Shown here one piece after another: positions 14,365-21,050 of a stretch of DNA of 25,354 bases (within the stretch, counting starts at the first letter, position 1; each line of letters begins with the position of its first letter). Location: the NCBI GenBank assembly GCA_027064085.1, contig JAMOQH010000192.1:1-25354 (forward strand). The letters run 5' to 3'. The DNA comes from a bacterium (lineage in GTDB: Bacteria; UBP6; JAFGXH01). The notes under the pieces were generated by a model. The model was not told where the DNA came from, did not search any database, and was given only the letters and a program-made list of their open reading frames with translations. The translations under genes were made by a program, and so were the position numbers.

Positions 14365-17300
14365 ATGAGAAATTTATCAAATTTAGTACTTATTATAATG
14401 TTATTAACAACAACATTCCTTTTTGCAGATGAAAATAGTGAGTTTAAAAAAGCAAAGTCTTATTGTGTTGAAAAATCACATAGATTATGTTTGAAATCTC
14501 TAAAAAAATTTAATAAAAAATATCCTAAATCTAAATTTAAAAGAGAAGCTATTCTTCTTGAAGCTAAATCGTTAAATAGAAGATATAATAAATATAAAGC
14601 ATTGAAGATTTTAGAAAGTTTTACTAGAGACTCTAAAAAAGATAAAATACATATAGAAGCAATTAGTCTATATATAGATTTATATATCTATCAAAAAGGA
14701 ATCTATAATACAAAAAATTTTAAAAAAGTGTACAATCTTTTAAATGCTAATTATAATATATTTAAAAAAAATAAAAGCTTAAAAAATAGAATGCTTAAAA
14801 ATTATTATAAATTATATTCTAATTCATATTATAGTAAAGATAAGAAAAAAATTGTAAAGGATGTAAAAAAAAGATTACTTGAACTTTCTGATACAAATTC
14901 ATTAAAAGCTAGATATTATTACACTCTTGGAAATATAAGCTTATATCAAGCAAAAAATCAAAAATCAATTTCTTATTTAAATACTGTAATTAATGAATTT
15001 CCTAGTGGGAGATATTATTATGATGCACTTTATGCCTTAGTGAATTATTACAGTAGTAAGCAACAATTTATAAAATCTGTTGAAATATTAGAAAAAGCTA
15101 AAAAAAGAGTTACTATTTTATCAAAAAGATTTTATGAAATATCTAATAAAATCGCTTATATCAAAAATCCAACTATGAGCGTTTATACAAATTATACATT
15201 TTTACCTAATAATGCCCCAATAGTTACATTAAATTACAGAAATAGCAGTAAACTTGATATAAATATTGTAAAAGTTAATGATGTGAAAAAATTACTTCCT
15301 AAGAATGGATATTATAATCAAATTAATGCTTTAAATGCTTATCAAAGTTTATCTAAAAATGATAAAAATATTATTAAAACTTGGAATAAAAAATTAATTA
15401 ATAAAAAAGATTATAAATATCATAATGAAACAATAAAATTAAAAAAATTAAAGCCAGGTACTTATATTTTATATGCTAAAACCCAAAAAGGTATTAAAGC
15501 TGCAACTGTTATAAATGTAAGCGAATATGCACTAGTTGTTAAAGCGGCTCCAAATAAATTTTTAGCTTATGTTGCAAATGCGATAACGGGTATTCCTGTT
15601 GCGAATGCAGATGTTTATATAACTTTAAATAAGTATAACTATAAAAATAGTAAGTATGAAATAATAGAAAAATCAGGAAAAACTGATGATAGTGGTGTTT
15701 TTACACTTGATGATGAAGATTTTAATAAAAAAAGGTATTCAGCTCCTAGTATTTCAATTTTAGCAACAAAAAATGGTAATACTGCATTTAGTAATACCTA
15801 TGGAGGATATTATTATTGGAATTATTATGATAATTATTCATCGTATTCTTTTACTGATAGACCAGCTTATAGGCCTAAAGAGGAAGTTTTTTATAAATCT
15901 TTTATAAGGCTTCAAAAAGATGGTAAATATACAATTCCTGATGAGAAATTTAAAGTAATAATAATGGATACTAAAGGTAAAAAGGTTGTAGAAAAAGAAG
16001 TTACTTTAAGTAAAGCTGGTACTTTAAGTGGTAGTTTTAAAATAGATAAAAATGCACCTTTAGGGCAATATACTATGTATATTTTAAATTCAAAAGGTAG
16101 TTATATTTATAGAAATTATGGTTATTTTAGAGTAGAGGAATATAAACTTCCTGAATTTAAGATGACAATTAAGTCAAAAAATAATATTTATAAACCAGGT
16201 CAGAAAATAAGAGTTGAAATTGATACACAATACTATTTTGGTGGTGCTGTAAAAAATGCAAAGGGTGAAGTTTTGGTATATGAACAACCTTACAGATATT
16301 ATTATTGGTATAGAAGACCTTATTATTGGTATTATAATAATTGGCGACAACAGCAAAATCCTTATGCTTCTTATGGTAGTTATAAAGGTACATTATTAAA
16401 AAGATATAAAATTAAAACAGATAAGCATGGCAAGGCTTTTATTGAAATAAAAACAAAATCAATTAAACAAATTGACAGAGAGCTAAGGAAAAGATATGGT
16501 AAAAATTATATAAATTGGTTAAAAAATGAGAAAAACAGTAAAATATTATCTTATTATAGTCGTTATGAATATTATAATTATTATTACAGATATTATTATT
16601 CTTATGATAGAAAATATATGATGGAAGTAAGATTAACTGATAAATCAAGAAGAGAAATTATAGGAAATAAAGAATTTAAAGTTACTGAGAATCCATTTTA
16701 CATAAATTTAAGACCAATTAAATATGTTTATGAACCAGATGAAAATATTTCTTTGAATATGAAAGTTTCTAATGCAAATGGAGAAGCTGTTAAAGTTAAA
16801 GGTAAATTAAAGATTTATAAATATTATTATAATCAAAAGGCTAAAAAGGGAGAAAATAAATTTATAAAAGAATTTTTAGTTGATATGCCACAAAAAGATA
16901 ATTTTATATATAATTTTAAATTAAAAAAAGAAGGTTATTACTATGCTGTTTATGAAGTAAAAAACGGTAAGAATGTTATTACAGGTGCAACTTATATTTA
17001 TATTTCAAATACAAAATATGCTAAATTGTATGTAGATAAAGATATTTCAGTTATTCCTGATAAGGACTATTATAAGCCAAATGAAAAAGCCAAAGTTTTA
17101 ATAACAAGTAAATATCCCGACTCCTATGTTTTAATTACAATAGAAGGCGAAACTATATTTAAATATCAAATTGAATATATAAAGGAAGGTAGTAAGATTA
17201 TTGAATTACAACTTGATAAATCAATGACTCCTAATGTTACAATTAAAGCTGGCCTTATTACTAATTTAGCATATCATCAAAATCAAAAAGAAATAATTAT

Positions 17301-19947
17301 ACCTCCTTTGGATAGATTTTTAACTATTAATGTAGAAAAAAGTAAAGATGTATTTCAACCAGGTGAGGAGGCCGAATTTAAAGTTAAAGTTACTGATTAT
17401 AAAGGAAACCCTGTAAAAAATGCAGAATTATCATTGGGTATAGTTGATAATTCTATTTATTATATTCAAAGTGATTATGCTAAAGATATTCAGCAGTTTT
17501 ATTATTCAAAAAGGAATCAACTATCTGTAAATACCACTAATTCTTTTTATAATACAACATATTATAATAAGGATAAAGGTGTTAAATTTAAGCAAAAAAT
17601 ATCATTAGATGGAGCTAAAGAAGAAAGTTTTGGTGCTGGAGATATGGAAAGTGAAAAATCTGTTATGGCTGATGAAATTTCAACTGGTAGTATAAGATTT
17701 TCTAGTCGTGGTTCTGGAGGCGGAAAAAGTAGAAGGCGTTCTGTAAGTAAATCAGCAGCAAGGCCAATGAAAAAAAGAAAGTTGGCATCTAATAAAGATA
17801 GTAAAGCAAAGTATGATTTTGATGATGATAGTGTTTCTGGACAAACAGTTAAAAAACCTAATTTTAAAAATGTAAAAGTTAGAACAAAATTTGCATCAAC
17901 GGCTTTCTGGAGTCCTTCTTTTATTACAAATGAAAATGGAGAAGCAACTATAAAAATGAAGTTTCCTGAAAATTTAACTTCATGGAAGATTGTTGTAAGA
18001 GGTATTACTCCTGACACTATGATAGGAGATGTAAAAACAACAGTAAGAACTAAAAAAGATATTTTAGTAAGATTACAAGCTCCTAGATTTTTCTTAGAAA
18101 GAGATAGGGTTACAATTAGTGGAAATATTCATAACTATAGTGATAAAGATGATTATTTTGATGTAAAATTAGATGTTAATGGTGGATTAAAATTTTTAGA
18201 TTCAGATAAATTTAAAAAGATTTTTATTAAAAAGGGGGAAGATAAGAGACTTGATTTTAATTTTGATGTAATAAAAAAAGGAGAGGCGGAAATTACTTTA
18301 TATGCTAAATCTAGTAAGGGTAGTGATGCAATGATGTTAAAGTATCCTATTAAAATATATGGAAGTTTAAAAACAATTAGTGATGTTTCAAATACAAGTG
18401 AAAGAACTATTTCTAAACTGATTTTACCTGCTGACAGAATTAAATCAGGTACTAAGCTAGAAATTTCAGTTGCTCCTTCTATTGCTATGATTACTTTATC
18501 ATCATTAGATTATTTGGCACAATACCCTTATGGTTGTGTAGAACAAACTATGAGTAGGTTTTTACCAACAATAATTGCATTAAGAATGGTAAGAGAACTA
18601 GGGCTTGATACAAGTTTTTTTAGTAAGGGTAAAAATATTGATGATATGATTAATAAAGGTTTAAAAAGATTATATGATTTTCAGTTATCCAATGGTGGCT
18701 GGGGTTGGTGGAAAAATGATAGATATAATCAATGGATGACAGCTTATGTCGTTTATGGTTTATCTGTCGCAGTAGATACCGATGTTAAAGTTAATCAAAA
18801 AATACTTAAAAGAGGGATTACCGCTTTAAGGAATTCATTAAAATATAATAAATCTAATATTCATACTATGGCTTATGCCCTTTATGCTCTTTCTTTTAGT
18901 AAACAAACAGTTAAAAAAGCATTAAATAGAGTTTATAAAAAAAGAGATAAATTAAATGCCTATTCAAAAGCCTTGTTAGCGATTACAATGCATAAACTAG
19001 GTAAAGATAAAAAAGCTAAAATATTATTAAGAAATTTAGAAGATGATGTTCATGTTGATAAAAAGAATAATACTGCTTTTTATGGAAACAATTATTATTG
19101 GTATTGGTATAATGGAAGTGTAGAATCAACTGCTTTTGTATTAAGAGCATATTTAATGATAGACAAAAATAATAAAAGAGTAGAGCAACTATTAAAGTGG
19201 TTGGTTTATAACAGAAAGGGTAACCGTTGGAATCATACTAAGGATACTGCACATGCTGTTTATGCATTAACTGATTATTTAAGAGTTTTTAAACAAATTA
19301 CTAAAAATGGTGAAATTGATGTTAAATTAAATGGTAAACTTATTAAAACTATAAAATTTGATAAAGACAATATTATTAAGCATTTAAATGGTTGGGGCTT
19401 AACTTTTGAAGATAAGGATTTAAAAACAGGAGAAAATGTCATAGAATTTGTTAAAAAAGGTAAGGAAAATATATATTTTTCAAATTTTTTAACATATTTC
19501 TCTCAAGAAGAGCATATAAAAGCAGATGGACATGAATTAAAAGTTAGAAGGAAATATAAAAAGATACTTAAAAATGGTAAATTTAAAATTTTAAAGGAAG
19601 GAGATACTGTTAAAAGTGGAGATAGGATAGAAGTACAGTTAGATATATATTCTAAAAATAATTATCAATATATTATGGTTGATGATTTCAAGCCTTCTGG
19701 AATGGAAAATGTGAGGTTTACTAGTGGTGGAAGTAGTGCTGGTGGAACTTATGCAAATATGGAAATCAGAGATGATAAAACAGTGTTTTTTGTAAGCTAT
19801 ATGAATCAGGGTAAACATGTAATTAAATATGAATTAAGAGCAGAAATACCAGGAATATTTCATTCTATGCCAGCAAAAGTAAATGCTATGTATGTTCCAA
19901 GGTTAAAGGGAAATTCAAGTAGTACAATTTTAAAGATTAAAGATTAG
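14365..19947 (+). CDS. Bacterial alpha-2-macroglobulin with N-terminal TPR-like region
   Basis: 1860 residues. A signal peptide (about 1-21, ending FLFA) has no lipobox Cys, unlike enterobacterial YfhM. Residues about 25-280 are Lys-rich TPR-like helices. Macroglobulin-type beta domains follow, including the MG2-like DRPAYRPKEEVFYKSFIRL (about 502-520). The chain then passes through a charged bait-like region (about 1078-1165) into the A2M domain (FASTAFWSPSF, then PENLTSWKIVVRGIT). The thioester motif PYGCVEQ is intact (C1391, E1393, Q1394) within an alpha-helical thioester domain with NGGWGWWKNDRYNQWMTAYV. The C-terminus is receptor-domain-like (about 1700-1860). Such proteins trap attacking proteases by covalent thioester linkage at the cell surface. 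Three Tyr-rich loops are unusual. No PBP1C partner gene is adjacent. Confidence 0.93.
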   Translation: MRNLSNLVLIIMLLTTTFLFADENSEFKKAKSYCVEKSHRLCLKSLKKFNKKYPKSKFKREAILLEAKSLNRRYNKYKALKILESFTRDSKKDKIHIEAISLYIDLYIYQKGIYNTKNFKKVYNLLNANYNIFKKNKSLKNRMLKNYYKLYSNSYYSKDKKKIVKDVKKRLLELSDTNSLKARYYYTLGNISLYQAKNQKSISYLNTVINEFPSGRYYYDALYALVNYYSSKQQFIKSVEILEKAKKRVTILSKRFYEISNKIAYIKNPTMSVYTNYTFLPNNAPIVTLNYRNSSKLDINIVKVNDVKKLLPKNGYYNQINALNAYQSLSKNDKNIIKTWNKKLINKKDYKYHNETIKLKKLKPGTYILYAKTQKGIKAATVINVSEYALVVKAAPNKFLAYVANAITGIPVANADVYITLNKYNYKNSKYEIIEKSGKTDDSGVFTLDDEDFNKKRYSAPSISILATKNGNTAFSNTYGGYYYWNYYDNYSSYSFTDRPAYRPKEEVFYKSFIRLQKDGKYTIPDEKFKVIIMDTKGKKVVEKEVTLSKAGTLSGSFKIDKNAPLGQYTMYILNSKGSYIYRNYGYFRVEEYKLPEFKMTIKSKNNIYKPGQKIRVEIDTQYYFGGAVKNAKGEVLVYEQPYRYYYWYRRPYYWYYNNWRQQQNPYASYGSYKGTLLKRYKIKTDKHGKAFIEIKTKSIKQIDRELRKRYGKNYINWLKNEKNSKILSYYSRYEYYNYYYRYYYSYDRKYMMEVRLTDKSRREIIGNKEFKVTENPFYINLRPIKYVYEPDENISLNMKVSNANGEAVKVKGKLKIYKYYYNQKAKKGENKFIKEFLVDMPQKDNFIYNFKLKKEGYYYAVYEVKNGKNVITGATYIYISNTKYAKLYVDKDISVIPDKDYYKPNEKAKVLITSKYPDSYVLITIEGETIFKYQIEYIKEGSKIIELQLDKSMTPNVTIKAGLITNLAYHQNQKEIIIPPLDRFLTINVEKSKDVFQPGEEAEFKVKVTDYKGNPVKNAELSLGIVDNSIYYIQSDYAKDIQQFYYSKRNQLSVNTTNSFYNTTYYNKDKGVKFKQKISLDGAKEESFGAGDMESEKSVMADEISTGSIRFSSRGSGGGKSRRRSVSKSAARPMKKRKLASNKDSKAKYDFDDDSVSGQTVKKPNFKNVKVRTKFASTAFWSPSFITNENGEATIKMKFPENLTSWKIVVRGITPDTMIGDVKTTVRTKKDILVRLQAPRFFLERDRVTISGNIHNYSDKDDYFDVKLDVNGGLKFLDSDKFKKIFIKKGEDKRLDFNFDVIKKGEAEITLYAKSSKGSDAMMLKYPIKIYGSLKTISDVSNTSERTISKLILPADRIKSGTKLEISVAPSIAMITLSSLDYLAQYPYGCVEQTMSRFLPTIIALRMVRELGLDTSFFSKGKNIDDMINKGLKRLYDFQLSNGGWGWWKNDRYNQWMTAYVVYGLSVAVDTDVKVNQKILKRGITALRNSLKYNKSNIHTMAYALYALSFSKQTVKKALNRVYKKRDKLNAYSKALLAITMHKLGKDKKAKILLRNLEDDVHVDKKNNTAFYGNNYYWYWYNGSVESTAFVLRAYLMIDKNNKRVEQLLKWLVYNRKGNRWNHTKDTAHAVYALTDYLRVFKQITKNGEIDVKLNGKLIKTIKFDKDNIIKHLNGWGLTFEDKDLKTGENVIEFVKKGKENIYFSNFLTYFSQEEHIKADGHELKVRRKYKKILKNGKFKILKEGDTVKSGDRIEVQLDIYSKNNYQYIMVDDFKPSGMENVRFTSGGSSAGGTYANMEIRDDKTVFFVSYMNQGKHVIKYELRAEIPGIFHSMPAKVNAMYVPRLKGNSSSTILKIKD

Positions 19948-20130: not shown

Positions 20131-20149
20131 GCAATGGAGGAATATGGAA

Positions 20150-20998
20150 ATGTATAATCGTAAATGGATTAGGTTAAGTTGTTATGATTATTCAAAAGAG
20201 GGTAGTTATTTTGTTACAATAAATACATATAAATTTAAATGTTTATTTGGTAAAATTGTTAATGGCGAAATGATATTAAATAATAGTGGTAAAATAGTTG
20301 AAAATGAATTATTAGCAACAGAAAGAATAAGGAAAAATGTATTTATTCCCATATATGTTATAATGCCAAATCATATTCATTTTATATTGGAAATTCGTTC
20401 AAATAATAATATATGTAGGGATAAGGCGTTGCCTTATCCTGTGATTAATAATTCAAATAATAATAATGATATATGTATTAGGGATAATGCGTTGCCTTAT
20501 CCCATGATTAATATTAAAAATAATAAAAATGATAATATATGTAGGGATAATGCGTTGCCTTATCCTGTGATTAATATTAAAAATAATAAAAATGATAATA
20601 TATGTAGGGATAAGGCGTTGCCTTATCCTGTGATTAATAATTCAAATAATAATAATGATATATGTATTAGGGATAAGGCGTTGCCTTATCCTGTGATTAA
20701 TATTAAAAATAATAAAAATGATAATATATGTAGGGATAATGCGTTGCCTTATCCTGTGATTAATATAGAGGACGAGGCAACGCCTCGTCCGTACTATGGG
20801 GATTTAGGGAGAAAGGATAAATTAGGAAATATTATTGGGCAAATTAAATCAATTTCATCAAAGAAAATTAGGAAATTAAATAAAAATAATTATCAAAAAA
20901 TATGGCATTGGAATTATTATGAGCATATCATTAGAAATAAGAATGAATATTTAAAAATTGAAAATTATATTAAATATAATCCCAAAAATTGGAGATAA
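20150..20998 (+). CDS. REP-associated tyrosine transposase (RAYT, IS200/TnpA-REP-like) with an internal repeat insert
   Basis: 282 residues from ATG 20150, nine bases after GGAGG; the ATG at 20144 has only 3-base spacing. The frame is open back to GTG 20069, but RAYTs begin near MYNRKWIRLSCYDYSKEGSYFVT, which fits 20150. The HUH motif is H75-I-H77 in MPNHIHFILE. The C-terminal region (NIIGQIKSISSKKIRKL, then IWHWNYYEHIIRNKNEYL, then ENYIKYNPKNW) is the family's conserved end; Y273 in YIKYNP is the likely catalytic tyrosine. Between them, residues about 86-215 are an insert of 21-residue repeats (RDKALPYPVIN followed by an Asn-rich stretch). These repeats are the translation of REP-like DNA palindromes. 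Without the insert the protein would be about 150 residues, the usual RAYT size. RAYTs nick and join single-stranded REP hairpins. Confidence 0.88.
   Translation: MYNRKWIRLSCYDYSKEGSYFVTINTYKFKCLFGKIVNGEMILNNSGKIVENELLATERIRKNVFIPIYVIMPNHIHFILEIRSNNNICRDKALPYPVINNSNNNNDICIRDNALPYPMINIKNNKNDNICRDNALPYPVINIKNNKNDNICRDKALPYPVINNSNNNNDICIRDKALPYPVINIKNNKNDNICRDNALPYPVINIEDEATPRPYYGDLGRKDKLGNIIGQIKSISSKKIRKLNKNNYQKIWHWNYYEHIIRNKNEYLKIENYIKYNPKNWR
20419..20754 (+). repeat. Array of six REP-like palindromes at exact 63-bp period inside the RAYT gene
   Basis: Palindromes start at 20419, 20482, 20545, 20608, 20671 and 20734, each 21 bases long. Arms are GGATAAGGC and GCCTTATCC around a GTT loop, with one arm change (GGATAATGC) in copies 2, 3 and 6. 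Copies 1, 3, 4 and 6 are immediately preceded by GTAG, copies 2 and 5 by TTAG. The 42-base spacers are A/T-rich and come in two types (encoding NNSNNNNDICI or NIKNNKNDNIC). The first three units and the next three units form a 189-bp higher-order duplication. Confidence 0.95.
20770..20790 (-). repeat. Seventh REP-like palindrome, inverted and with compensatory arm changes
   Basis: Arms GGACGAGGC (20770-20778) and GCCTCGTCC (20782-20790) pair perfectly around AAC. AAC is the complement of the GTT loop of the six upstream copies, so the element is in the opposite orientation. TA to CG changes in one arm are matched in the other. On the minus strand the four bases before the hairpin are GTAC. 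It starts 36 bases after the sixth copy starts, ending the 63-bp rhythm. Confidence 0.85.
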
Positions 20999-21024: not shown

Positions 21025-21050
21025 ATAGTAAAGACTTTTGGCTTTACTAT
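21025..21050. repeat. Hairpin 1 downstream of the RAYT gene
   Basis: Perfect 9-bp arms ATAGTAAAG (21025-21033) and CTTTACTAT (21042-21050) with an 8-base loop. Its inner 20 bases align with the next hairpin in arm length, loop length and sequence (G-Y-AAAG and CTTT-R-C arms). Confidence 0.75.

Follow-up and report, generated by a model that had tools for sequence, protein, structure and literature searches.

A RAYT gene that carries within its coding sequence a tandem array of REP hairpins of its genome's own family

The window (the whole 25,354-nt stretch of DNA analyzed here) contains a gene for a REP-associated tyrosine transposase (RAYT, or TnpA-REP) in which seven REP palindromes lie in frame between the two halves of the catalytic core, six of them copies of a single tandem unit. 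Related hairpins are dispersed through the host genome, related RAYTs carry hairpins at the same position, and another gene of the host has a REPIN at a site that is empty in homologues from two other genomes. It is probable that a group 4 RAYT took up in frame a REPIN of its own family, that duplication then raised the REP to six copies, and that the enzyme mobilizes REPINs. REPs and RAYTs are widespread repeat systems in bacteria. A RAYT that holds substrate-like hairpins, in a genome with dozens of in-frame hairpins in its ORFs, provides a compact test case, both for the mobilization of REPINs by RAYTs and for the invasion of proteins by palindromes.

Results

The RAYT gene and its product

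The reading frame is open from an ATG at 20144 or at 20150 to the TAA at 20996-20998, and a probable ribosome-binding site lies upstream (Table 1), 9 nt before the second of these starts. The product is a single-tyrosine HUH protein and has what defines a RAYT: a Y1 HUH core, an HUH motif (N-H75-I-H77, numbered from 20150), and a tyrosine motif of the YxxNP type, the YIKYNP at the C-terminus. In an AlphaFold model, built from an alignment of 45 sequences, most of the core has a pLDDT above 90, while residues 97 to 219 or so are nearly all below 50. The best match of the model in the PDB is 4er8, a RAYT bound to a REP hairpin. Frame, motifs, and fold all bear out the initial annotation, which had read the gene as a RAYT on the strength of H75/H77 and YIKYNP. 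It had also called the RAYT otherwise ordinary, with the insert as the exception. That part needs some correction, since REPs in the linker are the usual and published state of its subclass.

Table 1. Features of the RAYT gene (positions in the window)
Feature	Position	Strand	Remarks
Probable ribosome-binding site	20136..20140	+	GGAGG; from sequence; 3 nt before ATG 20144
RAYT / TnpA-REP gene	20150..20998	+	ORF; alternative start ATG 20144
N-terminal half of Y1 core	20150..20403	+	HUH motif H75/H77; pLDDT >90 for most
Six tandem 63-bp units	20401..20766	+	REP + AT-rich spacer; in frame
REP 1	20415..20439	+	GTAG at 20415; perfect palindrome GGATAAGGCGTTGCCTTATCC from 20419
REP 2	20482..20502	+	TTAG before; palindrome from 20482, one mismatch
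REP 3	20541..20565	+	GTAG at 20541; palindrome from 20545, one mismatch
REP 4	20604..20628	+	GTAG at 20604; perfect palindrome from 20608
REP 5	20671..20691	+	TTAG before; perfect palindrome from 20671
REP 6	20730..20754	+	GTAG at 20730; palindrome from 20734, one mismatch
REP 7	20770..20794	-	Inverted; perfect palindrome from 20770 with different stem GGACGAGGCAACGCCTCGTCC, then GTAC; 3' end of REPIN
C-terminal half of Y1 core	20812..20995	+	Helix; W252; E258/H259/R262; Y273 (catalytic-type) in YIKYNP

The match to NCBIfam REP_Tyr_transpos (NF047646) is split in two by the long insert and scores 56.8 bits, below a cut-off of 80 that is a curation threshold rather than a biological definition and that is passed in only one of the six control genomes that give a match. 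The match to Pfam Y1_Tnp (PF01797) is weak, 22.9 bits against a cut-off of 23. Profile A2 matches both halves (E = 2e-64), partly by construction, the window protein being one of its 12 rows. Matches to SpoU_methylas_C, DND1_DSRM, and DfrA8 were rejected as low-complexity, since part or all of each lies in the linker that the repeats encode.

Then there are the residues through which the E. coli TnpA-REP contacts GTAG. Four of them, W94, E100, H101, and R104, correspond to W252, E258, H259, and R262 of the window protein. A fifth, Q95, which reads GTAG, is replaced by H253, and this, like the NF047646 score, counts against the explanation preferred here. Judged by its sequence, the window enzyme may nonetheless recognize a GTAG hairpin.

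Upstream of the RAYT gene lies an ORF of 1860 amino acids (14365-19947), by eye of the alpha-2-macroglobulin type, and downstream a hairpin, ATAGTAAAG...CTTTACTAT (21025-21050), a possible terminator or terminal inverted repeat whose sequence is unrelated to the REPs.

An array of palindromes with a tandem origin

All seven palindromes lie between the HUH and tyrosine halves, where dinucleotide shuffles of the window predict 0.00. The initial annotation had it that some 130 extra residues separate the conserved halves, that they are the translation of seven palindromes, and that GTAG directly precedes four of these. The counts agree: the protein is about 125 residues longer than an insert-free paralogue (L059), there are seven palindromes, and exactly four have the GTAG. 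Four of the seven are perfect and the others have one mismatch (GGATAATGC). The seventh lacks a 5' GTAG and has GTAC on its 3' side. The best hairpin of the linker surpasses those of all 30 codon shuffles, and the predicted fold of the mRNA from 20398 to 20800 has a z of -9.4. A chance origin of the palindromes is ruled out by the window shuffles, by the codon shuffles, and by the survey of relatives described below.

Neither did the palindromes arrive by seven independent insertions, a possibility excluded by the 63-bp period of the array and by a higher-order period of 189 bp (97% matches over 20401-20766). Six are copies of one tandem unit, and the array can therefore be accounted for without the self-seeding of REPs that the initial annotation had thought possible. 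Its other two ideas, self-limiting nicking and autoregulation by hairpins in the mRNA, stay hypothetical, the stable predicted fold being what speaks for them. Since the six units are in tandem and the seventh palindrome is a different, inverted copy that ends in GTAC, the insert is best read as a single REPIN, GTAG-hairpin ... hairpin-GTAC, expanded by duplication. The same architecture, with the same hairpin-GTAC ending, is found in a second RAYT paralogue (L060), in a mannosyltransferase gene (L152, below), and between two ORFs, where five GTAG-type hairpins form an intergenic array (L039:3797-4275; G000, contig C189). The last consists of a GTAG-hairpin, an AT-rich tandem spacer, and an inverted closing hairpin-GTACGG.

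Dispersal in the host genome

About 98 related palindromes (up to 2 mismatches) were found in the 3.65-Mb genome, against 1 with a reversed-pattern control. Exact matches to the window's 21-mer lie on contig C179 and, five times over, on C189. The GTAG-footed form gives 31 strand matches (18 + 13) in the host and 0 to 2 in each of 14 other genomes, two of the same family among them. The initial annotation had advised a search for copies elsewhere in the genome and had named their absence, together with a lack of binding or cleavage by the protein, as grounds for giving up its reading. With the hairpin dispersed, those grounds are gone, and GTAG foot and dispersal together uphold its view of the palindromes as GTAG-tagged REPs.

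Most published REPs avoid genes; those of this genome do not. Of 92 distinct sites, 79 (~86%) are inside ORFs of at least 120 amino acids, an approximate proportion, as the list pools sites from an unbiased sample with others chosen for containing a match. The usual though not defining trait of REPs, that they are mainly extragenic, is accordingly absent. The part of the genome sampled was 862 kb plus targeted loci, and those 862 kb are about 92% covered by ORFs and have a G+C content of 26.6%. Intergenic copies of the hairpin type also occur (L039, L056, L169, L190). Among the host's other loci, one encodes an FtsK translocase with a REP in the linker that separates its membrane part from its motor (L066:893-913; G000, C133), and in one the product has a B12-binding domain and a comparable REPIN lies in frame (L162:19223-20002; G000, C18). 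A more distant Y1 transposase (L061; G000, C32:4223-4768) has a different palindrome, AACAAGGGGTTGCAACCCCTTGTT, at its 3' end.

Codon phase is far from even. Of 42 representative loci, 36 read the hairpin in phase 2, 6 in phase 0, and none in phase 1; if every stop-free phase were equally likely, 19.4, 7.7, and 14.9 loci, respectively, would be expected. Translation in phase 2 yields hydrophilic peptides (KDESVTHP, for example) and translation in phase 1 yields peptides like IRRCLI. The bias suggests selection at the level of the protein after insertion. The bias and the load of intragenic copies could also come from spread by another route.

Insertion is seen in the gene for a tRNA-queuosine mannosyltransferase (QTMAN; L152:12611-13819; G000, C8), in which a REPIN was inserted in frame between the two domains. 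The insert, about residues 172-224, reads CRDDGIASSLHQDG...NALAVREE, which a REPIN resembling the one in L060 encodes, and is absent from the homologues in genomes G024 and G003. The two flanking halves are contiguous in G024, where query residues 6-171 and 225-370 match 31259-31795 and 31793-32236. Between the domains of the host gene there are also about five 15-bp tandem repeats (NLSQG).

Paralogues and relatives

In the host genome, a hairpin stands at either end of the linker in the window RAYT and in its paralogues L062 and L060, and paralogues with similar inserts are likewise open reading frames. L059 has a short linker without hairpins, and so the insert is dispensable for the family in this genome. 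In a tree that has many unresolved forks, three own-genome rows of deviant composition, and rows that do not include the published reference members, the window RAYT groups with L062, L059 is their sister, and a RAYT from the same family (L103) comes next. This group is nested in a clade of linker-bearing RAYTs from many phyla, and L060 lies elsewhere.

A GT[AG]G-tagged perfect hairpin is present in the same HUH-Y linker in 55 of 71 RAYTs of the clade (those parsable among 80 relatives from genome contigs), from many phyla, a count perhaps inflated because relatives were ranked by similarity to a query that itself has a linker hairpin. Codon shuffles predict such hairpins in 0.33 of 71 genes, and the rest of the gene, twice the length of the linker, has one in 4 of 71, contrasts that the ranking touches less. 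In the remaining 16 no tagged linker hairpin was detectable. An in-gene REP is thus common among the relatives analyzed, the recurrent insert position that the initial annotation had thought worth looking for, and the palindromes are perfect while their stems are specific to lineages.

In most genomes tested, the internal hairpin corresponds in sequence to a hairpin family dispersed in the RAYT's own genome. A linker hairpin of the RAYT in G003 has more than 30 sites there and none in nine other genomes. The pattern GTAGGGGCGACCC... has 31 copies in G071 (L240), 12 in G070 (L257), 9 in G069 (L254), 8 in G072 (L238), and 3 in G068 (L228), and none in G000 or G036. Some copies in G069 repeat the AAT loop of the RAYT's own hairpin, and nearly all those in G072 have its stem variant, ACCT/AGGT. 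In G028 and G056 the sole copy found, with one pattern search each at the stringency used, is inside the RAYT, and in G063 (Fodinibius) the position on the contig of the single copy found fits the RAYT. A generic pattern, GTAGGGGC..GCCCCTAC, did not cleanly track the presence of RAYTs over 61 genomes; G030 has eight copies of GTAGGGGC...GCCCCTAC, yet a RAYT of the clade was not found there.

Discussion

I propose that a RAYT gene of subclass 2.4 (group 4) acquired, in frame, one REPIN from its genome's GTAG-hairpin family. The insertion would have fallen in a permissive loop that joins the HUH strand to the helix preceding the tyrosine motif, and replication slippage or unequal recombination would then have multiplied the 5' REP, together with the AT-rich spacer, until there were six units of 63 bp. 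The residues so added would form a disordered loop on the surface, so that the enzyme could remain functional. Most likely, the enzyme binds the single-stranded GTAG hairpin and mobilizes REPINs, which in this genome lie mostly inside ORFs, in-frame copies with a hydrophilic, KDESVTHP-like peptide being those that would survive.

It may be that the internal hairpin is instead kept by selection as an element acting in cis, either carrying a REP seed along with a horizontally moved RAYT or regulating the mRNA. The tagged hairpin is, after all, in one and the same linker in 55 of 71 RAYTs, with stems that differ between lineages, the window RNA folds strongly, and in three genomes the only copy found lies in the RAYT or at a position that fits it. 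Those single-copy cases, however, come from one pattern search each, L059 and 16 relatives do without a detectable tagged hairpin, and the pattern would be no different if REPs had entered a permissive loop again and again. On balance this reading is somewhat unlikely. It is very unlikely that the gene is a decaying pseudogene gathering repeats. An expanded linker of low complexity and a low NF047646 score are what one would expect of it, but the frame is open and has a ribosome-binding site, the HUH, W, E, H, R, and Y residues are conserved in a confidently modelled core, and paralogues with similar inserts are open as well.

It is too much to expect that the repeats were selected for the peptide they encode (RDKALPYP), the DNA palindrome being incidental, and this I regard as extremely improbable. 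One codon phase dominates and its peptide is hydrophilic, as it would require. But it does not account for palindromes that are perfect and have lineage-specific stems across phyla, for intergenic copies of the hairpin type, for a hairpin that L060 reads in one frame and the window gene in another, or for relatives in which the palindrome is kept while frame and peptide change.

The idea of an element acting in cis can be carried a step further. Group 4 RAYT genes might keep a REP in their coding sequence for its usefulness in cis, each gene bringing both the nuclease and a seed of its substrate and so being able to found a new REP family wherever horizontal transfer takes it. In genomes like the host's, that family would spread mainly via protein-coding genes. 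I think this unlikely, but if it were true, protein-invading palindromes of the Rickettsia type would gain a candidate for the enzyme that mobilizes them.

How much of this is new? A limited literature search, which is no proof of novelty, did not find the tandem hexamer, a genome with GTAG REPs mainly in ORFs and in one preferred phase, or a linker survey over a comparable range of genomes. REPs inserted in frame in the HuH-Y interval, on the other hand, are already described for TnpA-REP subclass 2.4, to which RAYT group 4 is assigned (Quentin et al. 2018; PMC6006769), and the window RAYT is therefore probably a new and extreme member of a published subclass. It shares with that subclass the NH[IFV]H form of the HUH motif (here NHIH), a long and variable HUH-Y spacing, in-frame REPs within that spacing, GTAG-footed hairpins, and a scatter over phyla. 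It differs in that its AT-rich linker holds six REPs in tandem, in that its two ends are marked by GTAG and GTAC respectively where the subclass has a symmetric double foot, and in reading WH for WQ and YIKYNP for YIxNNP.

E. coli TnpA-REP (4ER8; RAYT group 2) has the same fold and the same GTAG-contacting W, E, H, and R, with Q95 in place of the histidine and a short linker without a REP. As for the hairpins, intragenic GTAG REPs and the Rickettsia palindromic elements have both been described (Di Nocera et al. 2013; PMC3733652). Like those GTAG REPs, the hairpins of the host are palindromes of 20-40 bp with an unpaired 5' GTAG, some of them in frame in ORFs and some as inverted dimers. The REPs described there are mostly intergenic, whereas about 86% of the examined sites in the host are inside ORFs. 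The Rickettsia elements, to judge by their description, are likewise palindromes in frame in many protein genes. Unlike those elements, the copies in the host are tagged with GTAG and accompany RAYT genes that hold the same kind of hairpin.
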